A stretch of DNA of 64,000 nucleotides from NCBI GenBank assembly GCA_032622095.1, contig CP136067.1:131629990-131693989 (forward strand). Reading direction: 5' to 3'. Under the pieces are notes generated by a model that saw nothing but the letters and a program-made list of their open reading frames with translations, was not told the origin of the DNA and searched no databases. The position numbers and the translations under genes are program-made. The DNA comes from Siphonodentalium dalli (taxonomy: Eukaryota > Mollusca > Scaphopoda > Gadilida > Siphonodentaliidae). Shown here piece by piece: positions 13,587 through 62,765 of the stretch; position 1 is the first letter of the stretch; each line of letters opens with the position of its first letter.

Positions 13587-13976
13587 TTAACCCTTTACCC
13601 AACAAACCGGCCAAAACCGGCCAAATAAAGCTTCAACAGCCTAAAATATCTTGGGTCTGTCTCAATAAAACCATACAAATATGGATATCATTGGAACTGG
13701 CTCATTGACCACATTGTGATGGTTATAGTTATGCCCTGTGCCAATGCATTCTCTTATATATGCGAGTCGACCATAGGTCGCCTCGCATATATAAGAGAAT
13801 GCATTGGCCTAAAACAAATATTTTTTTACCATTTTTTCTTACATTCTTTAACAATTTTATAATTTTTAATGTGTTAAGCCAATGCATTCTCTTATATATG
13901 CGAGGCGACCTATGGTCGACTCGCATATATAAGAGAATGCATTGGCACAGGGCCGTTCTGTTGGGTAAAGGGTTAA
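13587..13976 (-). mobile_element. TTAA-flanked MITE (piggyBac-like), copy 2
   Basis: A 390 bp element bounded by TTAA. Its termini are AACCCTTTACCCAACAAACC and the complement GTTGGGTAAAGGGTT, and it is inverted relative to copies 1 and 3. It contains a pair of palindromes at 13734-13808 and 13878-13952 facing each other across an AT-rich spacer. Confidence 0.9.
13734..13952. mobile_element. palindrome-ended short element (219 bp)
   Basis: Left end CCCTGTGCC plus a palindrome with core GAGTCGACCATAGGTCGCCTC. The right end is its reverse complement, core GAGGCGACCTATGGTCGAC, ending GGCACAGGG. The 70 bp interior is AT-rich and includes TTCTTACATTCTTTAACAAT, the complement of the internal repeat seen in other copies. 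The open frames across it only reflect the palindrome. Confidence 0.9.
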
Positions 13977-14447
13977 ACAGACACGGCGTTGAGTATATTT
14001 CTTTGTTGATACTTGTTCTTCAATAACCTATTTCACATTAGGCGGTGGTCCCAGCTCGAGATTTTATGTTTTTATGTCACTGTTGTCAGCTGATATCGCA
14101 ATAAACATTGACTTAGTTACCCCTGAGAAATTAAATAATTGCATGTAAGCGACGCAATGCAAAATCGCTCATAAAGTCACTTAAATCGTGCAATTTCGAG
14201 TTGCGATCTTTACATAGAGAAAAGCACACTAATACGAAGCAGGTAATAGGTAAGAAATATATTACCTGGACTGTATTTTAAATGGTGTACATTCCCCTGT
14301 CACAACATAAAAAAGTTCCTAGGTTTATACAACTGGCTGGTGGAATATGAACTATACGGGGGTAGCTAAAGTACAGATTCATGGCATGATCTCAAAGAAT
14401 GATACAAAGAACAGATCAAACTGTACTTCGATGTGTGTCAGCAGACA

Positions 14448-15225
14448 TATTTGCTAGACAAAGTATTCCCTTTCGATTATAATTGGCGAATGATAAAAAA
14501 TGAAATAAGGGTATGAATCAAATTACTTGCATCAAGACAAATGTGTGGACTTTTTCAACACAATACTCTGTCCAAATAACGTTTCTGCAAATAAGAAAAA
14601 AAAATATTCGAATTCCACAACAACAAATATTGATGAGAGTGGTATATTTGTCAGTGAAACACTTAATTGCGTTAAACTACTTGAAAACAGAAAATCTTCT
14701 GAGTATGGAAATTTCGAGAACGAATTTCTAAAAGTTGTCGTTCCCGCGATAAAAGATGAAGTACATGTAGTATCACTATTTATCACATAATTTGGCCATA
14801 AAAGCAGTTTCATAATTATCGGTAATAGACACGTTTAATATCATCGCGTGCGATGACGTCACGGCGTTCTTCAAATAACTTGCGATCGCTGTAGTTTATG
14901 ATTGTTGTTTTCGATGAATATTTCGCGTTGCTTCGGGTTTATTGATCATATGATAAAAGGTATCTCACACTCGTCCTATTTTATACGTAATTTATCAACC
15001 TCGTCCTTTAAATTCTATTTGAGCCTCGGTAAACCTCGGCTCAAATTGAATTTAGTGAACTCGGTTGATAAATTCCGTATAAAATAGAAACTCATGTGAG
15101 ATCCTCTATTTAACCATGTTAATAAACTGTGCGTATGGACTGTTGTTGAAAACGCAAGTTGAATTGTGATTTGTAAGCAAGTATTTGCTGTTTGAAGGCG
15201 CAAACATTAAACTTCACAAATCAAT
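14448..15225 (+). repeat. inverted duplication, right member, with an insertion
   Basis: Positions 14448-14800 and 15110-15225 are the inverse of 12045-12392. The intervening 14800-15110 includes a foldback hairpin absent from the left member, which looks like a later insertion. An 87-residue frame at 14527-14790 spans the duplicated part but the left member does not keep it open, so it is not supported as a gene. Confidence 0.75.
14962..15100. repeat. foldback hairpin, arms about 62 bp
   Basis: Arms run from CTCACACTCG through ATTTATCAACCTCG and TTTGAGCC, then back through GGCTCAAATTGAATTTAG, CGGTTGATAAATTC and ATAAAATAGAAACTCATG. The loop is about 12 nt (TCGGTAAACCTC). It looks like an inserted MITE-type hairpin. 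Confidence 0.85.
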
Positions 15226-15565
15226 ATTGAACAAAGAAATTCAGACTACCGACGACTGTGGAATAAATTGAGCTGGCACCCAATAGAGCTATAGCTGAGG
15301 CAAACATTATTCTCACACGATATTGAATAAAGAAATTCATCGTTGTCAACTTGGACTTTTTATTTCAAAGATGATAACCTTCTGGCGACACGAACTTATC
15401 TAAAGCTTTAAATGGACAATGGCGCTAAAGGTCTTTGTTTGCTGTGCATTGAACTGAGAAACCTGTGTCCACTGTCCAGCCTACCGGCGACTCTGTGAAA
15501 TGAATCGTACTGTCAACTAATGGAGCTATATCGCACGCAAACATTTATATTCTCACACAATGCGT
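15226..15565 (+). repeat. imperfect direct duplication, period about 235 bp
   Basis: The blocks at 15245-15325 and 15480-15560 share CTACCG(A/G)CGACT, a run of AATAGAGCTATA or similar, and GCAAACATT with CTCACACA. It has no coding meaning. Confidence 0.6.
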
Positions 15566-18217
15566 GTTTTTAAAGATAAATGTGTTGTCCGCGATGGTTC
15601 AATATGGTGGCTTTATACAGCAGTGCGTCCTTTTCCTATTGGAAGTCAGTTATTTTTCATGGCATCTCTTTTGAACAACTATACGGGTATCACAAATAAC
15701 CACAGCCTGTCCTCTATCTGTTATATTTGTTTAAAGTCCGCATGAGTATACCATTGTGTAATATTCTACGAACCCGGCTTTATTCAGTGCACACGACCAA
15801 GTTGAACTAAGTATCCACGTTGTGGGGGGGGGGGGGTCTAACAGTTTTTTCCCGGAACGTATGACGCTGTTGGTGGATGGTCAAGGGGCCCCAAAAGCAA
15901 TTTTTCAACAACTCAAAATATGTTTTCCTCTTTCTTTTTACTTGATTTAGTCTCAAACTTAGGAACAATGTTGGTTAACATTCAAATTACTTGCAAACAA
16001 TCATATCATCACTTAGTATCTTGTTGAACACTACTGTGTTTATTTTTTTCAATTCAATGAGAAGAGATAGGAATTATAATATTCCATTATATAACATTAG
16101 GTATACAATTAGGAAATTAATGTAGTGGGTGTGTGTGTGCTATTCGTTGACACGGCGCTGTGGCCGTTTGGACACCCACTTAATTCAATTCTAATATTTA
16201 TACAGCTTTTTTCATTTTTTATTCCCATGAAAAAGCTGAGTGGATTCCTATTTAAAATATTTAAAACATCTGCCGAGAATTTTATACTTGACCATGCAGC
16301 GCATTAAGTCGGCCCACTATAAGATTATCAAGACTTAGCAACGATAACGTGATCGATATATAAATAACTGGCATCAGTTGAACTTTGAAAAGCATGCCCA
16401 ATTATTCTTCTGGCAGCTTTTTGTGATTTGGTGAACAATGTGTAACCCCGTGTTCGTGTTACGGTCTGTTTTATTGTGGTATGAAACATGTGACCCAATT
16501 GAGAGTTGATCAATCACCGAACAGGATTTAGTGTAACTCGGACGGGCTATGTAAATATTAGGCTAATGTATTTACTAAACCGCAGATTGATTGAGATGCG
16601 TTATTGAGCATGGTTGTAGTAGCACAACTCAATAGCATATGATGGCTAGAGTTGTAACATATATGGCATGGAACATGTGTGTGTAATAACGTTCACTTGA
16701 TTCACATTATTGTGCGGTTCTGTGTTAAGTACATATCAACAACAATGTAATCGACTGAAATGTGCATAATTTGCATTGATGGGTCCGGATGGATTTATAA
16801 ATAAAATTTATTCCCAACCATTTCTGTGTACAAAGAATTCAACAAGGGATTCACCAACGCGTACTTGTAATAAATGCTTTACTTTATTAAGGATGGTGAT
16901 ATTTGGTAGCAAAAAAAACAATTTCATCAATGTTATACAAGTTAATAGCTCACGTTAAGCGTACAATAAAGATAATGATATACAATTAAGTCGGATTAAG
17001 TGGGAAATTGTGTTTCCTTCTTGTCAATCAGCATGTAGTCCAGGAACATTTGGCTAAGACAGCCACAGTAAGGAACAAAACAAAAGTACCACCGAAGAGT
17101 TGTGTTGTCTGCTGATGCGAAATAACATCACAGACACTATACTAAAAGTCCCCGAACATCAGACGTGATAATTTTGAGTTATTCCATATTTTTGGTATCC
17201 ACCCGATTCCACAAAAATAGGGCACAAGGTAGTGAATATTCATGGAATATAAACTTCGTCGTTGTATAGTTCACATATACAGTTATGTAGTGTATGGTAT
17301 TAAGAATATATATGTGGTTATATAAACCTGAATGTTTAGGCAGAAACGAATCCCAGATGAATGTTAGTTGCAACAAATCATTTAAATTTGTATTTTTCAC
17401 ACTGTATTTTCAAATAATCCCCAGTCTTCAAAGACCTGGTTACATTCAGTAAACATCTGTTCAGCCTTTGTTTAGTTTTAATAACTACCTTGGTCTTATC
17501 GAAACACATCAATATAATACAAAACATATCTAGTCCAATATTTGTACCCAGGATCTCCAAAAAAATAATATATTTATTATTAGTCGTCTCGCTATTAACT
17601 CTTTGCATAATATGGGACCAGCTTCTGTTTGATACTGAATCGAGAGTACTCTTCGATGAGGAATTCGTTGGCCCCGTCCATCGCTTGTATAATAAGGGCC
17701 GTATTCCTATTTTAGGGACCATAACCCAATTTTGGGGTTCAGCCCTATTTTCTGACATTTTGGTCCTAATTGATATATCTACATGGTAACCACATACATA
17801 CATCATTTATTTTATTTCCTGTGACATTCTATGATGGGATTGCCCATCTTGGAGTACCTTATCCCCAAAACGCCAAACGTTATCAACTACAAAATTGACC
17901 AAACCAACAATTTCAGAATGGTGCCAAATATTAGATACTTGTTCCCGTGCCAGCTTGTCATAGTGTGAATTTGTTGTTTAATCATCAACGAGACAGTTAT
18001 ATCAATAGATATACACACAGCAGTGAACGTATAGACACCCATATTTATCAAAGAAAAAGAGATACTGACATAAATTCTACCGAGGATAGTGAAGGTGTCG
18101 CCCATATCTCGCTGAATGTCTTCCTTCCATCGACCGAATGTGACCAGGTTGCTCACAAGTACTATTGACCCATAAACTATTACTTGCGTGTGTGTATAAG
18201 AGCTTTCTCTATTACAA
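15566..18217. other. intergenic, no recognised gene
   Basis: A run of 13 or more G occurs near 15822. Two longer frames, plus 17490-17789 (99 residues, one hydrophobic segment) and minus 17887-18249 (120 residues, hydrophobic), show no known domain. I leave them uncalled. Confidence 0.4.
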
Positions 18218-18280
18218 AGAGTGTGAATGAACTTAGCGATACATAGCATTGCTATGTATCGCTAAGTTCATTCACACTCT
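18218..18280. repeat. perfect 63 bp palindrome (31 + 1 + 31)
   Basis: Arm AGAGTGTGAATGAACTTAGC continues to CGATACATAGCA; a single T is followed by the exact reverse complement. No mismatch is seen. It is unrelated in sequence to the recurrent palindrome family. Confidence 0.97.
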
Positions 18281-21200
18281 ATGATAGCAATACCGCTTTG
18301 AAAGTAGCCAACGCCATCGACCCCCACAGCTTCAACGTATATGTCTTTAAATTATATCTGCCATATAACACAGGCAAACTATCAACATAGTCATCAAGGA
18401 TAGTTTATAGACTGAATTAGTGCTCACAAGTTATCAAAACTCGGGTAGTCCGCTCTACCTATATACATAAAGTAGGTGTCATATCATAGAAATAATTGAA
18501 CATTCCTCAAATATATCTAAGTACAAACAGAGCAGGGACTTAGTAACTGGCACCATATGCATAACAACTATTAACGGAGAATATTGACAATGTAATCAGA
18601 GATTCAAAATCGTAGAACAATTTTACTTGTTGCTCTGCCATCTTAATATGCGACCGTGATACTTGTAAATGCGTTTGAGCCACACTCGACATGACACATC
18701 GAGCCCATCTAGAATTCCGAACCAAAGCACCATGTTGCTTCTTAATCCGGCCATCATATTACTCTTAAGTTACCAATGACAGTTTTCGGGACCAATAAAC
18801 TTTTACTTACAATATCAAACCTTATACATTGTCGCTCATACAATAAACATGAAATGTTTTCCAATCCTTATAATTTACAATAATATTTTAGTTCTCAAAA
18901 GTTGCAAACTGTTCAAAAAGCCAAGAACCTTGGCTCAATTGATTAATTTGCAGGTTTGAGTGATTGGTATTTGTAACAGCTGCTAGTCATTACTATGCTT
19001 GCTACATTGAAAAGGTTGCAGTAGGCAACTGGGCAAATTTATTTTGAAATTTATGTATATATCAATGTTTTATTCTCGAATCATTCACATGACAGGAATT
19101 GGAAATCCGGAAAAAAAATTTCGCCCCAAATTATGTATTTTTCGTTTTGGTAACACTATCAAAACGTTACATTGTAGTTATGATAATGGAGGATTGTCTG
19201 AATTGTTGTACAAATCGACAGTTAAGATTCAGCATTATCCATGGAGCAAAGGCACAACGATGGTATGGGATTATAAAGACACCGTGGTCACCACTCACTA
19301 CACATAGAAAACAACCAACCGTTCGTGTGTGACTGAAAAGCACACAATATAGTAGATGTCTTTTCCAGGTTTATCACTTTATTATTTATAATAGCGCCAT
19401 GTGGACAGTTAAGCCATTCAAGTGATACTTTTCTAGACCATTTACTACCAGATTAGCTCATGGGAAGCAATGACAATGGTGAATACATCAAAAAGTTGTT
19501 GTGCGTTTTAGCCAACCACAAAAAAAAACAGAAGATGCAGTTGGTTTGAACTTTGATGTGAAGTATAATGTCTTCTGGTACAGCATGTCAGTCTGCGCAG
19601 GTGGAAACTTCAAAGTGATGTTGGAACTTCGCTCACGTTAGCAGACACTAGATATGCTTTGTGGATAACTAGACTTTAAAGTTGCACAACTAATCGACCA
19701 GAATAACAAGTTGATGCTTGTCTTTCCTGTTAGTTCCCACACCTATGAAATTTGCAGAATCAGACGAGAGACTTTCATTATCACTATAAATTAAGGTGAT
19801 AACTACTTTGGTTCTCTGAATAAATCATGCAATTTGCCAAATTCTTATTGGGGCTAGATGTTCCTGTTGCTGTGGAGTGACCTTTTGGTGAAATAATTGT
19901 GTGCCTTCAAATTATGAAAGGAATAACATGAATTATCCTACCGTAATTATAAAAGGTGCCTGGGCCTCTGCCGTTTGGGAAAATCTTAACCAATGGCTGT
20001 TCAATTAGACATTTTCAAGCAGGTGAACCCCTTACATATATAGCCCGCGATTTGTAGGCGTAAACCAGCCTGTGATATCGGTAGAGCGAGATGCTACCAC
20101 CCCGCTGTCAAAATTTATACTGAAATCAATCACCTTGAAATTTCAGATTAGAAATTGGGCAAAATATGGTACTTTTGGCATTAGAATATTGACATGTATT
20201 CGGCTCCTAGTTATATCAAGGATCCTCTTTGAACATCGTCGTAATATGACAATGCGGCTGAAAACACATCATTCATGACAAACGAAACCAATCTCATACA
20301 GCATCCCTAAATCCTTTCTGTGGAGTTTTTTTTCTTCAGACCAGTGTGTCTGCCACCAGCCAATGCAGACACATAGCAGCATTCATTGACTGGCTATGTG
20401 CCAACGGATTATGGATATTATGGAATGAAAGTATGGGTTTCAATCCGCTTGCAACAAAATCATATTTAAATGTCATAAACCTCGGCTGAAAAAGTGGATG
20501 TTCCAAATGTATATGGATGGGGTAAGGCACGTATATACTGCTTATGCATATTTTGCCAAGAGACCAAATGCATGACTATTGTGTACAGGGGCTCAGCTGT
20601 GCGTGAATGTAATAGCATATGAGTGGTTTACCAACTCGTTGTCTGGTGTGTTTACCCGCATGTCTTGAATTCAAGTTGCAGTGTAGGTAACATGACTGTA
20701 GGGTTCTAAACTGCTCAAATGTATCACGATGCTAGTCAGATAGCAATTGCCCCGTCGTTCAGGTAACGTGTGGCAGAAATATTGATTTGAGTATGATGAT
20801 GTCACGAACATCACCAGGAGTTGTACCCCCAGTGTCGATACGCGATATTTATGATTAGTATAAGAACAACATCTGTCTATTATATAATATTATTTCTGTT
20901 TATGGTGGTTTTAGTGGATGTGACTATTTTAAAACCTATATCGACAGGGAACGCCGCCCGTATCTCTAACTCGATCAGCCCTGATATATTTGGCGATCTT
21001 TATAAAACTCTGGTTGAAAAACACTCTGTTTGGTCTGTTCTTTAATGATGCATGCATGTATGTTCCATTCAATGTGTTCTGATACGACTTTCAGAATCCT
21101 TAAAATCTCTAGTTTATTGAGAACAATTTAATGTTCGGTATTTGGCCAATTTTGACATTGGAATATTCGGCCAACTCAACGAGTGAATATTCGAACGATA

Positions 21201-22604
21201 TTCGAAAGTTGTTTAAAGAAACAAGTCAATAACTGCACCATGAAAGTTTTGTATAAGCTGTACAACAACATAAGTAAATGTCAATAGTGTTCCGAATGAA
21301 GGTTATATTTGTGGCACTCTATTGAGATATCTCCCATCCCGAGTATGGTCTCCTCCATACTTTTCGTGAAATTTCACAGACTAGTTTGGCATTGCATAAG
21401 ACTTTCTTGTTATAAAATTATCCCAAATATCCGATATCAGACCTAAAACCATCTTTTAATATATGAACTTCTAAGAACCCCTATATATGACCGTGTTTCC
21501 CACTGACCGATATATGCAACAGCAATTCCAATGTGAAACAACACGTAATACCAGGATTTTTTTTCAGTTTCAATATTATCTAATTTTTTTTCTATAAAGT
21601 AATTGTAGCTCTTTAAAACACTTCTCTAGTGTCGAAATATTTCATCGCGAAAACAGTTGTATGAGGGTTAATTACTGTCAGCAGATGGTCATCTTTTAGA
21701 TATCTAACAGGGCGGTTCTCACTTATTGTAAGGGGTGTCTAGATTCTGCCGATAATAAGGTTTATACTGTAACTAAACAGTTCTAACATTTGTGGAACTG
21801 TTAAAATGGCCTAGTGGAGGAAAAACGTACCGGATTCATGCAATATATGTGTGCTGGGTACAACGCTTAGCTTAGGTCGGCCTAATTGTCAGCGTTGTAA
21901 CAACACAGCCGATCGCACGTTCATGTAATCCCCTGCCGCATTTCTGTAAAGTGAGACCAACCAGTTATAACGTCGGAAGACTGGCGACTTATATACATGT
22001 GTGTATATCAAACATAATTAACCAGTTATGTCACTGCATGAATAATATAGAAGAGTAACATATTAAATCTGATATGATTCTTTTTGGGGAAACGGAATAT
22101 ATCCACCAAGCTACTGGGTGGTTATTCATCCACTCAATTACAATATTATAGACTGTTTGCATTGTGAATGTTGGAGTAGTTAAATATAAACCTGTCTATA
22201 TACTGTTTAAATATGATAAGGTGTCGGCTTCGGACATATTTTAGATCCATATTGTTCCATGTGGCAAGAAGACTTTTATGCATAGAATGATTCAGACATT
22301 GCCAATATTGAAATAGAACAAGATGGAACTAAGAAATTATATCCACTTGAGTTATTGACCACTATGGTTCCGGTCCCCAATGTGCATGGAAGCAGATGGA
22401 ACAAGTCAGTTCTCAACACAACTCACTTTCACGTACTTCGAACAGTAAATAACCGTGATTTACGGCGTTATTGTTCGAGATATCGCTTTGGTGTTACAAC
22501 CATCATGTAGAAAATTTAATTCCAGTTCAAACGGTACCCCAACGGACGTTTCGTACCACAACTGTACTTAGGACAGATTGGAACTCAGGTCGCGAATTGT
22601 TAAA
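18281..22604. other. intergenic, no gene recognised
   Basis: More than 4 kb of AT-rich sequence with no domain-bearing frame. Positions 20821-21000 are the third copy of the hydrophobic-leader repeat also seen at 2345 and 3564. Confidence 0.5.
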
Positions 22605-22740
22605 GAATGTAAGAAAAAAATGATTAAAGATGAAAAAATTGTTAAAGAATATAAGTAAAAATTTAAAAAAAAAAAAAAAAAAGTTATCGAATGTAAGAAA
22701 AAATTATAAAAAAATTTATAAGAATTGTTAAAGATTATTA
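22605..22740 (+). repeat. AT-rich TTGTTAAAGAATGTAAGAAA array without palindromes
   Basis: Degenerate copies of the roughly 32 bp unit TTGTTAAAGAATGTAAGAAA followed by AT-rich filler, with a long A run. The same unit forms the interior of the palindrome-ended elements at 57480, 58507 and 59996. Here the palindromic ends are missing, so it is probably an element remnant. Confidence 0.75.
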
Positions 22741-23595
22741 TTTCACTTATAATCGGACGCCGTGCTTATAACGTATATTTATAACTACAGCGAGATCCCC
22801 TCACATTTAGTCTAGTTATAACAACACCAAGGTTTCCTTACAGTCAACTCTCAGACTAGAGACACCGGTACATAAATTTATTTACAAGACGGACGGGGAT
22901 TTCCCCACTGCGACAGCTTATTAATAGTCATGTTTCTAAATAAAGCACGTCAACACTGGAATGTGTGCAGTGGGTCAAAGGTCAGTGATCGTAGATTGCG
23001 GTTTACTGTTTTGATTGACGTGCGACATTTCCTAAGTGAGTAAATAACAATTGCTGTTGCTTCAATCCCCATAAAGCCAATTCGTTCTGAAACGAATTAC
23101 CATATCCGTCTTTTCTGGTTATAAATAAGTTCCGTATAATATTGTCCTGTCTTGTTTCAACGAAATAATACGTAATATTTGCAATACGTTCTTCGTTGCA
23201 ATTTTGATCATTTGGATTTCCCCAAAATCAGCCATTGTTTTCGTAAAGCCTCGCTTTCATTCATCATTTCATTCATCATTTCCACCTTCCGTAATACTTA
23301 TTTTTAGAAATATTGGGCGGGGCTTGTATGAATAATTATTTTTGAGTGCAGAATGTGAACGGTTTTGCAGGAAGCTATTGATTGGTCGAGCAAGGCACTC
23401 TTTGATGCGCATTGGTTGGATTTCTCCCGTTTGAAATAATTTATTCCATGAGTGTCTCAATACTGTAAGTTGAAAGTAATGAAAATTAGGTCTAGTTTTA
23501 ATAAGACTGCTTGTCATTATGTGTATGTAATGGCGGTGATATAAGGCCAACGTATAGCATTGATCATATTTCTGCCTTGTAGTTTGCCTACGATA
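22741..23595. promoter_or_regulatory. upstream region of the lectin gene
   Basis: No coding feature. A TATA-like GATATAAGG lies at 23538, about 58 bp before the start codon, which would suit a short leader. This is only a positional guess and no initiator or CpG cluster supports it. Confidence 0.25.
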
Positions 23596-23896
23596 ATGGA
23601 GATCTTTACTATTGCCTTGACCTTGATTCATCTTATCGGCGCAGAGGAGTCAGTGGCAGGCAGATTCAAACGGATCCTTGCGTTGGACGGAGCACACGGA
23701 TCAGGTGCGTTCCAGACTCACTCCGGAATTCGCAGCGACATCAAATGCGCTGGATGGTGCCTCGCTGATGCGTGCCTGACTTTCGTTTATCACGTCGGAG
23801 ATAAGAAATGTTATCTGTACGACAAGTGGCTGTTGTCGACAACCTCAAATCTCACCTTCCCAGGAGGCAGCGTGGTTTACTTGGCCACGCACGATG
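23596..23896 (+). CDS. secreted PAN-like/C-type lectin protein, exon 1
   Basis: Encodes residues 1-100 and the first base of codon 101. Residues 1 to about 17 form a signal peptide (MEIFTIALTLIHLIGA). Then comes a small cysteine module with C51, C55, C60 and C72 in the order CAGWCLADAC...CYLY. This resembles a PAN/apple-type fold, a disulphide-linked binding module often placed before other secreted domains. An in-frame ATG lies 36 nt upstream, but starting at 23596 puts the hydrophobic stretch at the N-terminus, as expected for secretion. The exon ends at ACGATG|GTGAGT, a consensus donor. The product is probably extracellular, in innate recognition or mucosal binding; that role is inferred from the domains. 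Confidence 0.8.
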
Positions 23897-23911
23897 GTGA
23901 GTAATCTGTCT

Positions 23912-24346: not shown

Positions 24347-24368
24347 CTGTACTTCTATCTTTTTTCAG

Positions 24369-25020: not shown

Positions 25021-25757
25021 AGAATAAGAAATGGGGGGCAACATGTTGTACCCAACACAATATATTGTATAGATATAATTCAGTGAATGTGCACGCGATT
25101 ATTATTCAATCTGTTGCCACGCGGTGTGAGGATTGTATTTTTGATTAAGTATCCTGAGTTAATCAGAAGGGTGATAAGACAAAACGTTTGACTAAATAAC
25201 GGGGATTTGTCTGAAACAGTTTAAAACTGTTTAAAATCACTTCAAAAAAAAAAACCCGCTCTTTAAAAGAGTTCTTTGAAAACGCTCTTTAAAAACGCTT
25301 TTTAAAACACTTCCGGTACAAAAATGTTTTGTATTTTTTTATTTTTGAATATCTCCGTTATTCAGTGAATATAATCATTCCAAAATAAAGTAGATTTAGT
25401 AGTGGATAGTTGGCTCCGGTTACCCCCCTTAGATTATGTCAGGCTACTCATTTTGAAATACACTCCTAACATCGCGTGCATATGGCACCTGCCTAGATGT
25501 CTAATTTTGGTACGCAGCAAAATATCAGAACTTTTGTACCCTGTTGTTACGTCGGCGTACCACAATTTTCCATATATGCACCTGCCACGTGGACCTTGAA
25601 GAATTTGTTTCTATTTCTTGTTTTTTTTATATAAAATATAACAAAGGGGGACTTACTCCACCGATTGCGGCTGGGTAAACGGCATTATCGAACCACGAAT
25701 GGCGGTGATTGTAGGAAGTTTTCGTTTTTCATTTGCCGAGTAAGCTAAACATTAACA
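25021..25757. other. intron 2 sequence, no gene seen
   Basis: AT-rich, with a poly(A) run near 25244 and short repeats of CTCTTTAAAA. Nothing else is seen. Confidence 0.4.
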
Positions 25758-25785
25758 GCGCATATATAAGAGAATGCATTGGCTT
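25758..25785. repeat. half of the recurrent palindrome (decayed)
   Basis: CGCATATATAAGAGAATGCA followed by TTGGCTTA: one half-arm only, with no partner. Confidence 0.85.
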
Positions 25786-26856: not shown

Positions 26857-27075
26857 CCCTATGCCAATGCATTCTCTTACATAGGTCGACTCGAATATAT
26901 AAGAGAATGCATTGGCCTAACAATTTTTTTATTATTTTGTATAATTGTTAAAAAATGTAAGAAAAAATGAAAAAAATGATAACAAATTATTTAAGAATGT
27001 AAGAAATAATGATCAAAAATGATACAAATTGTTAAAGAATGTAAGAAAAATTGATAAAATTGTTATAGAAAGTTT
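26857..27075. mobile_element. decayed palindrome-ended element with AT-rich array
   Basis: The palindrome at 26857-26917 lacks its centre (TTACATAGGTCGACTCGAATAT) but keeps ATGCCAATGCATTC and GAGAATGCATTGGCCTAAC. It is followed by about 150 bp of TTGTTAAAGAATGTAAGAAA repeats. The right palindrome is missing. It is preceded by TTAACTCTTTCATGACGGGA, matching the left end of the TTAA element at 57438. Confidence 0.8.
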
Positions 27076-28526: not shown

Positions 28527-29580
28527 TCACATGTCCTCAATGAGGCGTCTGGGTTTTGTTCTTGTACGTGTAGGATATATTCTGTCGTTATCAAAATTCT
28601 GAGCTGACTCAGCTTGTGCAGTTGGGACTTCCTCAAATTCATCTTCAGAAAAAATATCTAATTGAATGGGAAATTCCACCACTTTGAAATGAGATGCATT
28701 TCTACAAATGCTGTGTTTAGAATTTTGAGCAGTTACCATGGAACCCTTAACTTTGATAACTTTGTACGGATATGGATCAAAATTTGGAACAATCTTCCAC
28801 TTCTTTTGGTTTAAGACAATGACAGAATCATCAACTTTTATACATGACATTTTAGCATGATTCCGTTTGTCTGCTAATTTCTTCATTTTATCTTTTTCTT
28901 TGGAATCATATTTCCTCACCTCTGCATCAGATACTTTGAGCGCAACATGAGGCAGTTTTGTTCGAATGACTCTTCCAAACATTAATTCATTTGGAGGTTT
29001 GCCAGTCGATGAGTGAGGTGCAGATTTAAAATTCCGAAGAAAAATAAATAACTCTTGCTTGTAACATTTCCCTTCAGTGTATGCTATTTTCACACGTTTT
29101 CCAATTGTTTCCATGAATCTTTCCACAGTGCCATTAGCCCTTGGCCAATAAGGAGTAACTTTCCTATGCACAAACCCCAAATTTGCTGCAAAATTAGCTA
29201 ATTGTGAACTGTTAAATGGACTTCCATTATCACTTTTAAGAACTTGAGGGATTCCTAAAGTTGAGAAAATTTTGTCCAACTTTGGAATAATAGCAATCGC
29301 AGATGTGGATTTCACAAAATCAATTTCAGGAAAACGAGAATATTCATCCATTACAACAATAATGTATTCGCCATTGGGTAATGGTCCATATAGATCAACT
29401 GCAATATCTTACCATACCTCTCGTGGTAGCTCGGTCATGATTAATGGTTCAAGCGTGCAAGCCTTAATCAGCTTTTCAACCATTGAATCAATTCTGGGAA
29501 ACCACACTTTCTCTCTCAGCAATTGTTTGGTTTTTACCAAACCGAAATGACCTTCGTGGCAAATTGACAGTACTCTACCT
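28527..29580 (-). pseudogene. Ty3/Gypsy integrase
   Basis: Read from 29580 downward. The N-terminal zinc-binding part (HEGHFG near 29555, then a C-T-L-E-P stretch missing one expected cysteine) is followed by LPREVW and an in-frame TAA at 29409-29411. After it come DLYGPLPNGEY, DEYSRFPEI, SDNGSPF and NGTVERF, which supply the DDE residues. The C-terminal part contains YPYKVIKV (GPY/F-like), and the frame ends near 28527 with a basic tail. The enzyme would insert element cDNA into host DNA; the stop and the lost cysteine make it inactive. Confidence 0.88.
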
Positions 29581-29958
29581 GAGTTTCTCAGGAATAACTA
29601 GCTTTGTACCACGTAAAACTATGTTATCAGATATACTCAACTTTTCTTTCACATTGTAAAACGACTTCAAATCATCAGTAATTATCTGCGAGTCTGAAAT
29701 TATTTCTATTTCATTCCAGCAATTATTAATGACTATGTATATCAACTTCTGCATTGTAGCATCATTCAAGTTTTCATTCCGTATTTCCTCTAATGACATT
29801 GCTTTAGGAACTGAGTGAGAACTTATGAGATTTACATAATTTTCAGCTTTAGACATTTGAGAACTTTTCTCGGTTTTCACCGGATGGCGTGACATAAAAT
29901 CGGCTGGATTATTGTCCTTGCCAGATCTGTGAATAATCTTGAAATTATACTGTTGCAA
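29575..29958 (-). pseudogene. Ty3/Gypsy RNase H end and connection region
   Basis: Frame beginning MQQYNFKIIHRSGKDNNPAD, the typical end of Gypsy RNase H, with NPADFMSRHP. It then runs through a linker to LVIPEKLR just before the integrase zinc-binding part. A frameshift near 29978 separates it from the preceding RNase H frame. Confidence 0.85.
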
Positions 29959-29975
29959 TTGTAATCCCCAACGTT

Positions 29976-30383
29976 CTATTCTAGCACATGGTTTAGATTT
30001 TGGATTCCATAGATCAATTGCAAGGCTTTCTGATCGGTGAAAATTGTAAATGTATCTGCACCATAAATGTATAAATGGAAATGATTACATCCCCAAACAA
30101 TAGCTAAGCCTTCTTTCTCTATTTGACTGTACTTCTGTTCTATCGCAGTTAAACTGCGACTAGCATAAGCAACTATCTTCGGCGATTCCGAATCAGATTT
30201 GCGTTGTGCTAACATTGCTGAAATTCCAACCGGACTAGCGTCTACTGTTAATTCAGTTTGAAATTTGGGATTGAAATACGTCATAACTCTGTCTGACACT
30301 AATGAATTCTTGATAGCGTCAAATGACCTTTGCTGTATATAGATCAGTCCATACGAATTGCGAACTTTTCTTTGTGAGTTCAC
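29976..30383 (-). pseudogene. Ty3/Gypsy RNase H
   Basis: Contains TVDASPVGISAMLAQ and VAYASRSLTAIEQKYSQIEK, with FTIFTDQKAL, the expected RNase H acidic motifs. It would remove the RNA strand during cDNA synthesis. It begins after a frameshift near 30350 relative to the reverse transcriptase. Confidence 0.88.
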
Positions 30384-31240
30384 TTAAAGGAGCATTTAGT
30401 GTAGCAAAATTTGGAATGAACCTTGAACAATAACTTGCCATACCAAGGAAAGATTTCACGGCACTTGCATGCTTTGGTATGTCAACATTCTCAATTGATG
30501 AAATTTTCTTTGGGTCTGGCTGTACGCCTTCTGATGAAAATATGTGACCGAAAAATTCCAACTTAGACTTGTTAAATTGGCATTTGGTTATGTTGAGTGT
30601 CAGGTTACTTGATTTCAAACATTTGAGAACTTGTTCAAGTGCATCGTCGTGTTCTGACTGAGATTTCCCGAATATCAAAATATCGTTGCTGATATTAATG
30701 GCGTTGGGAACGCTCTGAATTTGTTGACTAATGACATTTTGAAATTGTTTCGCTGCACTTGTGACCCCGAAATTTAGGCGATTGTACCTAATTAGTCCAA
30801 CATGTGATGAAAAAGTAGTTAGATACCTTCAATCTGGGTGAAGCTCCAGTTGATGGTACCCTTTTACTAAATCACAACGGCTAAATACTTTAGCTCCACT
30901 GAGTTTAGCTAAAATATCTTCAATTGTTGGAGTAATGTGCCTTTCTCTTTTGATAGCAGTATTTGGCAGTCTCATGTCTACACAAATTCTGACATCATTG
31001 GAGTTATTCTTAGGTACATTCCACAATTGGAGATACCCAAGGTGTGGGACCTTCAGTTTTTTCAATGATGTCATTCTCGATCAGTGAATTTAATTCTATC
31101 TCAATTTTCTTGCGTAAATGGAATGGAATACTACGATGCGGTTGAGCAATGGGTGTGACACTCTTACCAACATGTAGAACAATTGGTGGGCCATTGAATT
31201 TTCCCATACCTTCAAATACACATGCATACTCATCAATCAA
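30319..31240 (-). pseudogene. Ty3/Gypsy reverse transcriptase with altered active site
   Basis: Read downward from 31240: PHRSIPFHLRKKIE, WVSPIV, a frameshift near 31020, VRICVDMRLPN, FSRCDLVKGYHQLELHPD, then an in-frame TGA near 30825. It continues through VGLIRYNRLNFGVTSAAKQF to NISNDILIFG near 30665-30700. In this group the active site is normally NISDDI; here one catalytic aspartate reads asparagine (AAC for GAC). It resumes with HDDALEQVLKCL and ends with FLGMASYCSRFIPNFA. Confidence 0.88.
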
Positions 31241-35618: not shown

Positions 35619-35819
35619 ACATTATTTACTTTTATATTTGGGTATTACTCAACTACAAACCCTGAAATGTCGTATTTTAGTTGGGGAAAACGTATCATAT
35701 GTTTCCAATTTATGTCACATGTAAAGTTGTATTTCCTATATATCCTACACGTAAACATATAGTTGTTTTATCCACACCTTAAAGTGGTACTTAACTGAAA
35801 TGTTGCTGTTGTGGATTTA
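35619..35819. other. intron 2 spacer
   Basis: The last 13 bp (TGTTGTGGATTTA) are mirrored on the far side of the following element. Confidence 0.5.
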
Positions 35820-36189
35820 CCCTGTGCCAATGCATTCTCTTATATATGCGAGTCGACCATAGGTCGCCTCGCATATATAAGAGAATGCATTGGCCTAACA
35901 ATTTTTTACAATTTTAATACTTTTTTCTTGTATTCTTTGACAATTTTATAATTTCACCCATACAGAGCCCCAGACAAACATGAGCAGACGACACTCTTCT
36001 ATATGCTTCTATATATGTGTGGGGCTCCCTGCAGAGTAATGGATGTTTTGTTTTTTTTATGTCCTAAAAATTGTAAGATACATTTATTTTTTTTAAATGA
36101 TAAAAAATTGTTAGGCCAATGCATTCTCTTATATATGCGAGGCGACCTATGGTCGACTCGCATATATAAGAGAATGCATTGGCACAGGG
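35820..36189. mobile_element. palindrome-ended element, 370 bp, with internal hairpin
   Basis: Palindromes at 35820-35895 and 36115-36189 form its two ends. The interior holds AT-rich sequence and a block (35966-36029) with GAGCCCCAGACAAACATG and the complement end GTGTGGGGCTCCC. The copy at 62397-62765 has the same length within one base and the same interior. Confidence 0.92.
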
Positions 36190-36494
36190 TAAATCCACAA
36201 CATGTCACAATATTTTCTGCGTTATTATAGAATATGGTCAACAGATTTCAATTATATGACTGTCTGCTCAGGATGAATCACCAGGCGAGAATGTTACAGC
36301 TGACATATTAGTCGGGGAGCCAATAAGGTCCACCTGCACCCCCCCCCCCCCGATGATTACAAATAACCTTATTTTTATTGTTCCCTATGGTATCCAGATA
36401 AAGAATCCGGAATTCACCGAAAAATAAAGGTGGCCCTACTGGGTGCTAGAGCCATTTTAATCCAAGATGGCCGCCATTTCCTCTAACTCCGACC

Positions 36495-40184: not shown

Positions 40185-41049
40185 ATCATATAGTAACTCC
40201 CTGGCATTCACCCTATATCCAGTTGATATGTTTTATCATAATGGACCAGAATAGCCACATATTATGGTTCATCTCAGTTCCGTTTCAAAGTTCTGCCCAT
40301 TTCCTTTCAATAATATGACAAGAATCACAAAAGAGGTTCTCCGCCAAATTTCATACTGCAACTTTAAAATGAATTTGTCATGCCCCATACGGAACTGGAA
40401 CAAACATAATAGAACGTGGTTGTCAGCTAATTAACTAACACGTATAATGACCAAGTGAGTCACAATTTAATACCTTGTCGGATAACGCAGAGATTATGTA
40501 CGCAGAGATATATGTAAAAAAATTACTTTTTACAAATTTGGTTGCCATTTTGGAAGCCATCTTGAGCAATTTGGTCTATAAACACCGTAGTGTGACACAT
40601 TTAAGATAGACCAAAACAATAAATACCTTTGATACCAATGATAGTTGCATTCTACTTTTAAAAATTGTCCAATTGTCCAATTGTCCAATTTTTGCCGATA
40701 TTTATGTCAAGTTTGTGAGAGAAATATCCAATATTTCTGGTGATGTCAGTGGTGACAATAGAAACAATGATCCATGGTGCATCAGACATGTAAGTATTCA
40801 ATGTATATAATACAGATTAGCCAATTGTATATATCAACCACAACGTGTAAGCCATTGCAGGACACCCTGGGACAATATTTACCATTTTTCATATTTTCGG
40901 CGGCCATTTTGGAAATGTTCTACACCAATTTCATTCCCATTGAAGTAAAACATCCGTCCAATAAAATAAAGCACATAGTTGTTGACATTCTATATTAACA
41001 TCCTGTGTGGTTTGTCGTTAAAATGACTATCAAGACCGTCTTGCAAAAA

Positions 41050-41775
41050 AATCGAAAATTTCACCCCTCTTTTTCAAATCCTCTTTCTGTATCTATTACT
41101 GAACCCTCGTCAATGGCAAATGTCTTGAAATGACGCTATAATATCGCGCTTGATGCCTGTCTCAAATACATTGCCATTTACTAGGATTAATGTGAAGAAA
41201 AATGGAAGATATGGTGAGATATTAATTAAATTTCCTATTTTCGTGCATATGACGTCATTTTTTGGCGGCCATTTTGAATTTTTTTCGAAATTATTTGCCT
41301 GCATTTTGAAGAAGGACATCATACCAACAAAATGGCATACATTTTGTCTGTGTCTTTTGCTAACAACCGATCTATTACAACGATTAAATACAGCAAAATC
41401 GTCTTGCAAAAAAAATCGAAAATTTCACCCCTATTTTTCAAATCCTCTTTCTGTATCTATTACTGAACCCTCGTCAATGGCAAATGTCTTAAAATGACGC
41501 TATAATATCACGCTTGATGACTGTCTCAAAAACATTGCCATTTACTAATGATTAATGTGAAGAAAAATGGAAGATATGGTGAAATATTAATTAAATTTCC
41601 TATTTTCGTGCATATGACGTCATTTTTCGGCGGCCATTTTGAATTCTTTTCGAAATTATTTGCCGTCATTTTGAAGAAGGACATCATACCAACAAAATGG
41701 CATACATTTTGTCTGTGTCTTTTGCTAACAACCGATCTATTACAACGATTAAATACATCTGGTCGGAGTTAGAGG
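41050..41775 (-). repeat. tandem pair of ~360 bp units in the right foldback arm
   Basis: Inverted counterpart of 36495-37215, with the same two-copy structure and the same flanking order. Confidence 0.9.
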
Positions 41776-47059: not shown

Positions 47060-47400
47060 AAGTTATCATCCGGAAACCGCAAATCAGGTAAAATCTAAGT
47101 CGAAAAAGGGGCATAACTCAGTCAAAATCATGCGGACGAAGCCCATATTCGAACTTGATCTGTATTTCGGGGTGATAAACTAATACACAAAATTTAGTTC
47201 AGTTCACTTGATTCAATCTAAAGTTATCATCCGGAAACCGCAAATCAGGTAAAATCTAAGTCGAAAAATGGGCATAACTCAGTCAAAATCATGTGGACGA
47301 AACCCATATTCGAATTTGATCTGTATTTTTGTGTGGTAAACTAAAGTACGTAATTTGGTTCAGTTCACTCGATTCAATCTAAAGTTATCATCCGGAAACC
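47060..47400 (+). repeat. ~161 bp tandem repeat, just over two units
   Basis: Begins AAGTTATCATCCGGAAACC at 47060 and again at 47221 and about 47382. It includes GGCATAACTCAGTCAAAATC and GTTCAGTTCACT. It is non-coding. Confidence 0.92.
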
Positions 47401-47689: not shown

Positions 47690-47908
47690 ATACGGTAATG
47701 CCCAAAGTAATTGACCACTTAACCACAGCAGAATTATGGGTAATTTTTCAGGATTTAGTCGGAAATATGGCTTGTTGCCATTCACCGGAAAGCTCTCGGT
47801 GAGAGCTTTCCGATGAATGGCAACAAGCCATATTTCCGACTAAATCCTGAAAAATTACCCATAATTATGCTGTGGTTAAGTGGTCACTTACTTTGGGCAT
47901 TACTGTAC
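47690..47908. repeat. 219 bp near-perfect palindrome
   Basis: Arms of about 105 bp, centred near 47800 on CTCTCGGTGAGAG. The outer ends GTAATGCCCAAAGTAA and TTACTTTGGGCATTAC continue inward through TTAACCACAGCA, TTTTTCAGGATTTAGTCGG and ATATGGCTTGTTGCCATTCA. A solo arm is at 11195-11312. Confidence 0.95.
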
Positions 47909-48412: not shown

Positions 48413-48424
48413 CAGCTGCATTTA

Positions 48425-48458
48425 ACCTATGGTCGACTCGCATATATAAGAGAATGCA
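48425..48458. repeat. half of the recurrent palindrome
   Basis: CCTATGGTCGACTCGCATAT continuing AAGAGAATGCA; the left half and CATTGGC end are missing. Confidence 0.85.
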
Positions 48459-48479
48459 GCATTTAATTCATATATAAGA

Positions 48480-51015: not shown

Positions 51016-51019
51016 GATG

Positions 51020-55565: not shown

Positions 55566-55581
55566 TAGGCACGAAGATAGT

Positions 55582-57194: not shown

Positions 57195-57203
57195 CATAGT
57201 AAC

Positions 57204-57437: not shown

Positions 57438-57479
57438 TTAACCCTTTCATGGCGGAAGCTTCCTGAAAGTTTGCGAAAT

Positions 57480-57924
57480 CCCTGTGCCAATGTAACCTCT
57501 TATATAGGTCGCCTCGCATATATAAGATAATATATTGACCTAACAAATTTTATATTATTGTTTATAATTGTTAAAGAATTTAAGAAAAATATGAAAAAAA
57601 ATGATATAAAATTGTTAAAGAATGTAAGAAATAATGACAAAAAATTATAACAATTGTTAATGAATGTATATTAGACAAAATGATAAAAACTGATAAAATA
57701 AATGTAAGAAAAAATGTTCAAAAATGATTAAAAAATTTGTTAAAGAATGTAAGAAAAAATCATAAAAATTGTCATATAATGTAAGAAAACATTATAAGAA
57801 TGTAAGGACAAATAATAAAAAATCATAAAATTTGTTAAAGAATGTAAGAAAATTGATAAAAAAAATTTAGGCCAATGCATTCTCTTATATATGCGAGGCG
57901 ACCTATGGTCGGCTCGCATATATT
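57480..57924. mobile_element. palindrome-ended element with expanded AT-rich array
   Basis: The left palindrome is degenerate (CCAATGTAACCTCTTATATA); the right, from 57871, is cut off after GGTCGGCTCGCATATATT. Between them are about ten degenerate TTGTTAAAGAATGTAAGAAA units, the longest such array in the window. Confidence 0.85.
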
Positions 57925-57929
57925 ATAAG

Positions 57930-58068
57930 TTATTGTGGTGGATTGACAGTGATGGAGTGACATTGAAGGCTTGGAGTTTATGTTCAACCGAGTCGCGAAG
58001 CGACGAGGTTGAACATACGCTCCAAGAAGCCAATGTCACACAATGTTACCGTCAATTCACCACAATAA
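57930..58068. repeat. 139 bp hairpin, arms about 60 bp
   Basis: TTATTGTGGTGGATTGACAG, GACATTGAAGGCTTGGAG and TATGTTCAACC are mirrored by GGTTGAACATA, CTCCAAGAAGCCAATGTC and GTCAATTCACCACAATAA. The loop contains GTCGCGAAGCGAC, itself palindromic. Confidence 0.9.
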
Positions 58069-58506
58069 CGTGTATGTTCTGCCTACAGTCCTGGTCATTC
58101 TTAGAAATTTGACTTTGACTTTTGTTACCTGTTTATGTTCTTATAATTTATATTAATTGTATGCATTCTCTAAATATCTCCATGAATGGAGGAAATAAAG
58201 AATATATATATTACGTTGTTCAACGTAAATGGCGTCATGAAAAAAGCAGGCCAGCGAGAGACGATGAAAGGGTTGTCTTGGTTTCCCTTATGTTGACGAC
58301 TCGAGACGTAAACATAGGATATGTTGTGCGGCTCTCTGACTAGTCAACGACGCGGTTTCTTACTGGATGCGGAACAGAAGAGAGTGCATTGGCACTTTGC
58401 CTTTAATGTTGCGTGAAAGGGTTAAAAAAGTAAACCGCGATTCAATCCCGATGTTTCACATCTTGTAGGCGAAATTTGAATATCATTCACCAGTAAGATG
58501 GTTGTA

Positions 58507-58733
58507 CCCTGTGCCAATGCATTCTCTTATATATGCGAGTCGACCATAGGTCGCCTCGCATATATAAGAGAATGCATTGGCTTAACACATTAAAAATTAT
58601 AAAATTGTTAAAGAATGTAAGAAAAAATGGTAAAAAGTGTTAAAAAAAGATTTTTTAGGCCAATGCATTCTCTTATATATGCGAGGCGACCTATGGTCGA
58701 CTCGCATATATAAGAGAATGCATTGGCACAGGG
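58507..58733. mobile_element. palindrome-ended element, 227 bp
   Basis: Palindromes at 58507-58581 and 58659-58733 with a short spacer including TTGTTAAAGAATGTAAGAAA. The right flank CTAACTGTAACTATCACAAT resembles the flank inside the TTAA MITEs, so it is likely a remnant of one whose outer ends are lost. Confidence 0.92.
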
Positions 58734-59847: not shown

Positions 59848-59970
59848 TATATGTATATATTCCATGGATTTCTCGTTTTGCATCCGAAACACAATAGAGG
59901 AAATAATCAGTAGGTTTAAGTGATGCCTGAAAATTTTCAGTCGCTTTAATACAAAAAGTGGCCTATTCAG

Positions 59971-60435
59971 TTAACCCTTTACCCAACAGAACGGCCATGT
60001 GCCAATGCATTCTCTTATATATGCGAGTCGATCATAGGTCGCCACGCATATATAAGAGAATGCATTGGCTTAACACATATTAAAAATGATAAAATTGTCA
60101 AAGAATGTAGAAAAATATTATAAAAAATGTTAAAAAATGTAAGAAAAAATTATAAAATTGTTAAAGAATGTAAGAAAAAATGGTAAAAAGTGTTAAAAGT
60201 TTGTTTTTTTAGGCCAAATGCATTCTCTTATATATGCGAGGCGACATATGGTCGACTCGCATATATAAGAGAATGCATTGGCACAGGGCATAACTGTAAC
60301 CATCGCAATGTGGTCAATGAACCGGTTCCAATGATATCCATATTTGTATGGTGTTATTGAGATAGACCGAAGATATTTTAGGCTGTTGAAGCTTTATTTG
60401 GGCGTTTTTGGCCGTTTTGTTGGGTAAAGGGTTAA
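59971..60435 (+). mobile_element. TTAA-flanked MITE (piggyBac-like), copy 3, most complete
   Basis: TTAACCCTTTACCCAACAGA at the left and TTTTGTTGGGTAAAGGGTTAA at the right, 465 bp. It contains the full palindrome pair (59996-60069, 60213-60288) with AT-rich spacer and the same right-hand 145 bp as copy 1. The flank GTGGCCTATTCAGTTAA occurs on both sides (59958-59974 and 60447-60463), 11 bp beyond the right TTAA. Confidence 0.92.
59996..60288. mobile_element. palindrome-ended element inside copy 3
   Basis: Both palindromes have picked up point changes (CGATCATAGG, CCACGCATAT, GACATATGG). The spacer holds four or five AT-rich units. Confidence 0.9.
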
Positions 60436-61689
60436 CGTGACGTGAAAGTGGCCTATTCAGTTAAACTGCGAATTTGAATCACCAGAACTCATTTTCAAAA
60501 CCACGATGAGTAATTTAATTTCACGATGTGCGGCTTGTTGTGGAAATTACCGGTGTATGTACGTCAGTTAAACCCCCACTTGAGACGCGCTAATCTATAA
60601 ATTGAAACCGTCCCAATTACCAAAATATATCGCCAAACAAAAGCAGTATATTGTGAAAGAGATAGCAATTTACTAATGCAACTTACACACGCGTGACGCG
60701 TTATGTTTTTTTCCGGATCACTCAACTGTTCATAGTATGATAACTAGTTTAACATATCTCTTCCATATCACATGCGATGGGAATTGAATAACAATCGCTC
60801 CAGGGGCCGGGGTATTATGCAACGCATTCTGACTATAAGAAATTCTAATGTTTTCGGCATTGAAGCAGTGAAAATGATTGAATCAGCATGGTTTATTTAC
60901 AGATGTGTGGTGTATATTCTAATTAGTAAGGTTGTTTGGCTCCGATTTTGGGCTCCCGTGGGAACATTATGAACAAATATAGAGACCATGCTCACGAACC
61001 AGTATATGGTCTCTACTTCAGACAAAACAATTTTAGACCCCCCCCCCTGGGGTTGCGACTGGGTGGTCTGATGACGTCACAAAGATGGCCGCCATGATCA
61101 TTTTCTTAAGTTCGCTATTGTTGGATTTCAAGATAAAAAAATTCACAAAGTCTTCGTATACTTGTTGTTGATTTCTGATTCATGATTTCGCTCATACAGT
61201 GGTATCGGGTCGTTTGTTTCAAAACCCAAGTTCCCAAGCCTGATAAATCAGTAAAACCGCAAAAGAAACGAGGATAGACTCTAAGCGGCAAACGATTTAA
61301 CTAAGGTATTATTGACACCTCGTGCAGGTACTCCTGGAAACAATATTCCAGGTTTCTGGAGAAACGCAAAGGACTCCACTGCGTACACAAGAACACAATA
61401 TACCAGTGGTTTGAGTTGATCAGATCACTCTGACTTGGACCCAGTTCAAGTCAAGTATATATTCATTCAGAAAAACAATTTAATCGAGTTAAGGTCTCCA
61501 GCGGATGAGTGACTCAGAATTCTTCCGGCGTCCACGATGCATTACATTTTTCACCAACTATAGATAGGGCCATTTCTCTATTTTATTCATAATGTGACCG
61601 GAACGTCAGAAGAAACCCGAATCACTCAAAACGGGCTCGCATCTGCATGCATCAAACAGACTATATATACATTGAGGACAACAATTTAT
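60436..61689. other. intergenic, no gene seen
   Basis: A run of C near 61039 and no domain-bearing frame. Confidence 0.45.
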
Positions 61690-62345
61690 CTCTTCTAACG
61701 CAGCTGTGATATAAGTCTTTTGCTATTAACCGATTCAATGAAATCTATATTCACTTTTCATTAGTGTATCAAATTTCTGTATGGTTGGCCAGTGAGAGTA
61801 GTATGTTCTCAGATATCGACGTCGTATATCATAGGCCGGACAAACCAGTAGAAAGTGATATTCATTTCCGGCCGCTTTTAGCTGACAACATTTGCACAAT
61901 CTCTTTTTCCTGTCTACGCCTGTATATCTACCTGTCTCATTTCTAAATAGTGAGCACTTATTCTAACTTTCGTCAGAGCTATTCGGAATTTCGGTTGCTT
62001 GAGGGTTGATAAATATGTTTCATATTCGAACAACAACAATTTCAACTTGCCGTAAGTACATCGTTTTGATGAAGAATCTATACAAGCATGCCTTGTTCGT
62101 ATAAACTGGTCGCGTAAACGCGATTTAATTACATTCAAATCAGATACGATACAATCTTTATTATACCACATATATCCTAAACCAAGTTTGTCTAAAGAAG
62201 ACTTCAACAAAAATGTCCAGTTTTTCTACTTACGCGACAAACCAGAATGACAGTCGTTCCGATTCGATTCATATAGATTAGAGAGTAATGGGTTTTGCTC
62301 CTGAATTAAATTAATCCATGCAGTACTTAAAGATTCGATATAATC
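61690..62345 (-). pseudogene. 3' end of a LINE ORF2
   Basis: Minus-strand C-terminal region downstream of the polymerase. It reads AWINLIQEQNPLLSNLYES near 62290, NWTFLLKSSLDKLGLGYMW near 62180-62235 and RLRDQFIRTRHACIDSSSKR near 62070-62130. A frameshift near 61930 is followed by LCKCCQLKAAGNEYHFLLVC, a cysteine/histidine block that usually ends such proteins. At least one stop and one frameshift are present. The polymerase part is absent, as expected for a 5'-truncated LINE. The sister fragment at 63466 has the polymerase of a similar family on the other strand. Confidence 0.75.
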
Positions 62346-62396
62346 GTAATATGTGACCCGCCATATCAAATCCAGTCGGAAGTCGGGAATTTTTTA

Positions 62397-62765
62397 CCCT
62401 GTGCCAATGCATTCTCTTATATATGCGAGTCGATCATAGGTCGCCTCGCATATATAAGAGAATGCATTGGCCTAACAATTTTTTACAATTTTAATAATTT
62501 GTTCTTGTATTCTTTAACTATTTTATAATTTCACCGATACAGAGCCCCAGGCAAACATGAGCAGACGACACTCTTCTATATGCTTCTATATGTGTGTGGG
62601 GCTCCCTGCAGGGTAATGGATGTTTTTTTTATTTTATGTCCTAAACATTGTAAGAAACATTTATTTAAAAAACATGATAAAAATTGTTAGGCCAATGCAT
62701 TCTCTTATATATGCGAGGCGACCTATGATAGACTCGCATATATAAGAGAATGCATTGGCACAGGG
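62397..62765. mobile_element. palindrome-ended element, 369 bp, with internal hairpin
   Basis: Near-copy of 35820-36189, with palindromes at 62397-62472 and 62691-62765 and the GAGCCCCAGGCAAACATGAG block at 62541-62605. The symmetry extends outside it: ATCCAGTCGGAAGTCGGGA on the left is mirrored by TCCCGACTTACGACTGGAT on the right. Confidence 0.92.

Follow-up and report, generated by a model that had tools for sequence, protein, structure and literature searches.

A candidate MITE-like element with long palindromic ends, repeated within 64 kb of the Siphonodentalium dalli genome

In HINEs the 12-15 bp subterminal inverted repeats are themselves palindromic, a further palindrome lies near the 3' end, and insertion takes place within TT (PMC4067079). 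REPINs combine two palindromes in inverted orientation with a spacer that is less conserved, and it is the pair that is mobile, singlets being read as remnants (PMC3116915), and the mitochondrial double-hairpin elements and the GC clusters of yeast are short palindromic DNAs that are thought to be mobile (PMC7218506, PMC5910586, PMC4478555). The tandem-repeat miniature inverted-repeat transposable elements (MITEs) of bivalves, i.e. the pearl family, CvA and DTC84, are modular and non-autonomous and contain an internal tandem array (PMC5139131), and the bacterial insertion sequences ISPsy8 and ISRm22 insert at the symmetry axis of REP palindromes (PMC1525189). Here we describe a repeated element with mirror-image palindromic ends in 64,000 nucleotides of the mollusc Siphonodentalium dalli (contig CP136067.1, positions 131,629,990 to 131,693,989; this whole stretch is referred to as the window). 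The element is apparently non-coding and looks like a new family of small transposons of a broadly known kind.

An initial annotation of the window had reported five pairs of near-identical palindromes facing each other across an AT-rich spacer, at very high density for 64 kb. The five sites were confirmed, with the correction that pair D begins at 59995 and not at 59996, and the density in the window is high. The pairs are listed below, where carrier MITE 1 is a TTAA-flanked element to which we return.

13734-13952, minus strand: pair A, inside carrier MITE 1
35820-36189, plus strand: pair B, stand-alone; palindrome 35820-35894, spacer 35895-36114, palindrome 36115-36189
58507-58733, plus strand: pair C; right flank with 22 nt in common with carrier MITE 1 (95%), left flank without a match to carrier MITE 1
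59995-60288, plus strand: pair D, inside carrier MITE 1
62397-62765, plus strand: pair E, stand-alone; 94% identity to B over 370 bp

In all five pairs, as had been claimed, one palindrome is the inverted copy of the other, and the arms that they form with one another are 73-111 nt long and 94-98% complementary. Each palindrome also has arms of its own, of 27-33 nt around a centre of 3-15 nt. The consensus palindrome (CCCTGTGCC-type) is 75 nt long; its outer 6 nt, CCCTGT, form a tail, and the other 69 nt a stem-loop whose centre is 3 nt. We compared 12 palindrome rows with this consensus (two per pair, plus a solo copy read both ways) and found 7 to be identical to it. The rows of D depart at 3 and 3 sites (two beside an extra base) and those of E at 1 and 2; 5 of these 9 departures fall in the 15-nt core between the stems, a number too small for a test. 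As expected from its polarity, the solo copy read backwards departs at 6 sites. This polarity is due to a conserved T/C mismatch in the stem that makes the palindrome slightly asymmetric, and in each of the five pairs the left copy mirrors the right one. CCCTGT forms the outer junction (CCATGT at the left of D), and the inner junction is mostly CTAAC or TTAAC. Because the polarity of the mismatch is conserved and the junctions recur in the five pairs, the palindromes are not chance neighbours, a possibility that the initial annotation had named as one that would undo its reading. The intact copies (n=5) measure 219-370 bp, and all of them share with MITEs small size, presence in several copies and terminal inverted repeats.

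The spacer is an AT-rich minisatellite, for which the reported periods lie at 10-83 nt and are often ∼42 nt. The spacers of B and E are longer (220 and 219 nt) and have a non-repetitive core. In 8 of 10 pairwise comparisons between copies the palindromes diverge less than the spacers (Fisher p from 0.007 down to 2e-16), although these comparisons share sequences and are therefore not independent, and the alignments of unlike spacers (B-D and D-E) are poor. This pattern might suggest constraint on the palindromes or gene conversion. The core of the B and E spacers (35950-36050 and 62530-62630) contains an inverted repeat of its own, GAGCCCCA / TGGGGCTC, and by eye looks more conserved than the AT-rich parts; the spacer minisatellite also occurs alone at 22595-22738, with no palindrome match adjoining.

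Neither flank of B matches a flank of E, and since the two copies match over 370 bp between unrelated flanks, the unit has been moved or copied with those ends. Each of the two copies splits a palindrome:

35807-36202, strand not applicable: palindromic flank that pair B splits into TGTTGTGGATTTA / TAAATCCACAACA, a 13-nt perfect mirror
62370-62793, strand not applicable: palindromic flank split by pair E, a 26-nt block at 92% (24/26 matched) within 27/28-nt arms

When flanks were paired at random in an anchored test, 0/1000 flank pairs reached the score of B and 0/1000 that of E. After masking of eight element regions, 61,666 centres remained in the window, among which there was one locus with 12-nt perfect arms at a gap of 0-2 (two loci at a gap of up to 3) and two loci with 26-nt arms and at most 3 mismatches. 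The location of two of the five pairs at palindrome axes is not chance. TA stands on each side of both B and E, within TTTA and TAAA flanks. The axis location could reflect target choice, the making of arms at insertion, or nesting in palindromic MITEs. A decayed mirror flank suspected by eye at pair C was dropped, as its score in the anchored test was 0. The window also holds free-standing palindromes, one near-perfect at 47691-47907 (107-nt arms, 3-nt centre, 96% complementary) and one at 18215-18283 (34-nt arms, 1-nt centre, 97% complementary).

Other copies lie within larger elements with TTAA at their ends:

13587-13976, minus strand: carrier MITE 1 with pair A, TTAA-CCCTTTACCCAACA ends
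59971-60435, plus strand: carrier MITE 1 with pair D, TTAA-CCCTTTACCCAACA ends
1056-1307, plus strand: carrier MITE 1 with a solo palindrome, TTAA-CCCTTTACCCAACA ends
57438-58425, plus strand: probable carrier 2, bounded on either side by TTAA-CCCTTTCA, with GTGCCAATGCACTCTCTT 26 nt in from its right end

Over the 147-150 nt that follow the palindromes on the right, the three copies of carrier MITE 1 are 92.7-94.6% identical. Pairs A and D and the solo copy occupy one shared spot within this carrier, so they do not represent independent insertions. The two ends of carrier 2 probably belong together, and a decayed pair begins 38 nt inside the TTAA-CCCTTTCA end at 57438. TTAA is present on both sides in 3/3 copies of carrier MITE 1, all with a left start of CCC, while the right end of the solo copy's carrier has CAC instead of CCC (AAAGTG-TTAA). 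The piggyBac transposons target TTAA and usually have CCC/GGG as their first bases (PMC10140906); judged by its ends only, carrier MITE 1 fits a piggyBac-type element. Kolobok and KolobokP were considered for the carriers and rejected, since they require 5'-RR termini (PMC9587614) and the carriers start with CC. The stand-alone copies B and E, flanked by TTTA and TAAA, do not have the TTAA target duplication of the piggyBac type.

We used BLAST and a mismatch scan of the window to locate the partial copies, of which at least six had been noted. Six are listed below, where the decayed pair contributes two palindromes and the 18-nt motif is additional to the six:

1080-1160, plus strand: solo palindrome, CCTGTG / CACAGG at its ends, inside carrier MITE 1
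57480-57923, plus strand: decayed sixth pair, parts 57480-57537 and 57871-57923; spacer a long tandem array, right palindrome truncated
26857-27059, plus strand: left palindrome (26857-26916, centre deleted) followed by the spacer array, right palindrome missing; by eye, similar to carrier 2 in the left flank
48425-48458, minus strand: half palindrome, centre to mid-arm, flanked by two GCATTTAA direct repeats (by eye)
25757-25783, minus strand: single arm fragment
58378-58395: relic, 18-nt half-arm motif

We count 57480-57923 as a sixth, decayed pair. The solo copy has the polarity of one palindrome of a pair and carries the outer tail on both sides. Since each palindrome of a pair repeats the other in direct as well as in inverted orientation, deletion between them would yield solo palindromes; the anatomy of the solo copy fits such an event. 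At 48418-48466 the half palindrome starts at its centre and lies between 8-nt copies of the direct repeat, an arrangement that may reflect breakage at a hairpin tip and capture with an 8-nt duplication. A further palindromic block at 57952-58044 (45-nt arms, 78%) adjoins the broken right palindrome of the decayed pair.

The predicted folds are far more stable than those of shuffled sequences. Folded as DNA, three single palindromes gave -36.1, -38.9 and -46.1 kcal/mol (z of -14.3, -14.5 and -17.9 against shuffles), and pair B folded as RNA gave -228 kcal/mol (z of -29.7 against shuffles). The minimum-energy RNA fold of pair B is one long rod in which the palindromes pair with each other, not two separate hairpins, and on one strand the two forms are mutually exclusive.

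Taking these results together, we think it slightly more likely than not that the pair is a small non-autonomous DNA transposon of MITE-like type, with palindromic ends and mobilised in trans, of which B and E lie at palindrome centres while other copies are passengers of TTAA-flanked MITEs. Its ends would be the long inverted repeats (73-111 nt), each with a near-perfect palindrome (75 nt including the outer tail), around a variable middle. The unit would be moved by a transposase that is produced elsewhere and recognises its palindromic ends. The stand-alone copies, which lie at palindrome centres with TA on each side, would have been inserted there, presumably through a preference for palindrome axes. 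Other copies would travel as passengers in the piggyBac-type MITEs in which they are found nested, and solo palindromes would arise by deletion between the two palindromes of a pair.

Several results weigh against this reading. The axis location is backed by only 2 of the 5 pairs, as A, C, D and the solo copy have no flank palindromy (P of 0.27-1.0), and pair C is flanked by TA/CT. The TA beside B and E would also be expected from a palindromic flank, and both a TA duplication and a duplication-free insertion between TTT and AAA are compatible with it. As for the palindromes themselves, their divergence does not differ significantly from that of the spacers in A-D and C-D (p=0.73 and 0.14), and with the carrier DNA as the yardstick the constraint is weak: 8/147 differences in the carrier and 0/75 in the palindrome for solo-A (p=0.054), and 11/150 and 6/150 for A-D (p=0.32). 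Faster mutation of the AT-rich minisatellite may account for the contrast between palindrome and spacer. Finally, all 95 stop-to-stop open reading frames (ORFs) of at least 80 aa in the window were scanned against Pfam, and 0/95 contained a DNA transposase domain; the element therefore has no partner in the window.

Other explanations of the same features have to be considered. The palindrome could be an amplified sub-terminal repeat of a piggyBac-type transposon, originally a transposase-binding motif (GTGCCAATGCAYTCTCTT) near both TTAA ends that later underwent inverted duplication, in which case the pairs would be internal parts of TTAA MITEs and B and E rearranged pieces. In the three copies of carrier MITE 1 and in probable carrier 2 the ends do read TTAA-CCCTTT and the palindrome begins 20-38 nt further in, carrier 2 has the 18-nt motif once at its right end, with 1 mismatch and facing inward, and the sub-terminal inverted repeats of canonical piggyBac are 19 bp long and asymmetrically placed (PMC10140906). 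We nevertheless regard this origin as unlikely, since B and E have no TTAA ends, the motif is lacking at the right end of carrier MITE 1, and the 18-nt motif is a single match whose pairing with the left end would have to be assumed. To about the same degree we doubt that B and E belong to two MITE families with differing outer terminal inverted repeats, which contain the pair as an old internal module without any targeting. Nesting in another MITE is indeed seen for carrier MITE 1, but this reading requires two families that are unrelated, in each of which the pair abuts the inner edge of the terminal inverted repeat exactly, at the left as well as at the right.

The mirror arms around B and E might instead have been created at insertion, by fold-back copying of the flanking DNA from a hairpin end, so that the element makes rather than chooses its palindromic flanks. 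The divergence of the arms roughly tracks the age of the copy (0 changes in the palindromes of B and a flank matching at 13/13; 1 and 2 changes in those of E and a flank matching at 24/26 in the best block), and no other copy of either flank palindrome was found in the window. However, the argument concerns two loci only, and palindromic targets exist in the window as free-standing palindromes (18215-18283 and 47691-47907), which leaves fold-back copying less likely than either of the preceding explanations. Far less likely than any of these is that the palindromes are loci for microRNA or small interfering RNA hairpins and are maintained as such. The 69-nt stem-loops fold strongly, but a scan of the window against Rfam gave no family at the gathering threshold, and a 3-nt loop on a near-perfect stem is unlike a typical animal microRNA precursor.

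The surroundings of the element contain the domains of two retroelements, one similar to long interspersed nuclear elements (LINEs; Exo_endo_phos and RVT_1 in Pfam, 6966-9062) and one gypsy-like (RVT_1, RT_RNaseH and rve in Pfam, 28527-30828). These point to nuclear DNA, mitochondrial genes not having been searched for specifically. Among the ORFs of 80 aa or more, the five overlapping A, B and the decayed pair matched no Pfam family, and a search of the window for transfer RNAs at a bacterial-code setting found none. At 23545-23904 an ORF has a weak PAN_1 match just below the Pfam cut-off (20.9 against 21.4 bits) and is a possible host gene exon. Two arrays, each of two 364-365 nt units, lie at 36496-37225 and 41037-41757 and match in opposite orientation, near long inverted repeats at 37580-38007 and 40231-40672. 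Among the 25 of 80 inverted-repeat pairs listed, long repeats 2-3 kb apart occur at 53354-53610/55204-55460, 782-992/3401-3603 and 12164-12367/14464-14782, the second of which encloses the solo copy and the third pair A; these are perhaps the ends of larger elements. A repeat at 47060-47400 is reminiscent of bivalve genomes.

In viral contigs there were 0 exact matches to five strings of 20-26 nt, two of them taken from the palindrome and one each from carrier MITE 1, the B/E spacer core and the minisatellite. Among bacterial genomes a 21-nt string had one match, in a Clostridium metagenome-assembled genome, which we took as chance; by eye, the surrounding 161 nt contain neither a palindrome nor similar flanks. 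No named family was found with five strings (four from the element, one from carrier MITE 1) in the open-licence literature, where all were absent; Repbase, Dfam and the host genome lay outside this comparison. Nor was the element described in any of the matches listed from that literature. The initial annotation knew of no described family of this design, which is too strong a statement, as palindromic repeat ends have precedents in HINEs, REPINs and the double-hairpin elements.

If the axis location holds genome-wide, DNA shape, i.e. the centre of a palindrome, would count for more than sequence with this eukaryotic transposon, as has been described for some bacterial insertion sequences (PMC1525189). 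The element would then also provide a natural system for studying how cells maintain long near-perfect palindromes and how passengers spread inside other MITEs. A bolder proposal sees in the element the equivalent of REPINs in an animal nucleus: a transposon with long palindromic ends that behave as extruded hairpins, which either integrates at palindrome axes (the tips of cruciforms) or makes palindromic flanks while integrating, so that palindromes breed nested palindromes. We consider this slightly less likely than a piggyBac-type origin and slightly more likely than fold-back copying.

Comparison with the described systems places the element as follows. Like the Helentron-derived non-autonomous elements (HINE/DINE-1-like) it is apparently non-coding, and it shares with HINEs palindromic inverted repeats near both ends; some of their copies have tandem repeats too, and similar elements have been annotated as MITEs (PMC4067079). 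Unlike those of HINEs, its palindromes are ∼75 nt long (69-75) and terminal at both ends. Membership of the Helentrons/HINEs was rejected, as B and E are bordered by T at the left and by A at the right and are not inserted within TT; the palindromic repeats correspond in form only. Spy membership was likewise rejected, because Spy inserts within AAATTT without duplication (PMC4482050) and B and E read TTT on one side and AAA on the other. The inverted pair of palindromes with a less conserved spacer resembles REPINs, although the contrast in conservation is weak when carrier DNA is the yardstick, but REPINs are bacterial, shorter and proposed to be moved by RAYT transposases (PMC3116915). No RAYT transposase in a bacterial setting is seen here: the window contains eukaryote-type retroelement domains, and none of its scanned ORFs contains a transposase domain (Pfam only). 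A point of likeness with GC42 is that its stems change less than its loops, but GC42 is mitochondrial, 42 nt long and flanked by AG (PMC7218506, PMC5910586, PMC4478555), whereas the present element has a LINE-like and gypsy-like domain setting. In DTC84 a conserved palindrome is found close to the repeat junction, and the cited passages of PMC5139131 describe no long palindromic ends in a mirror pair for the bivalve elements. The bacterial insertion sequences at REP axes have their own transposase and REP targets, while the palindromes that hold B and E are unrelated to each other. The palindrome preference of plant long terminal repeat retrotransposons, which is weak and concerns 5-6 nt (PMC6911290), is not comparable. 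The unusual parts of the element are the size of its palindromes and its axis location, and the closest kind of element is the MITE.

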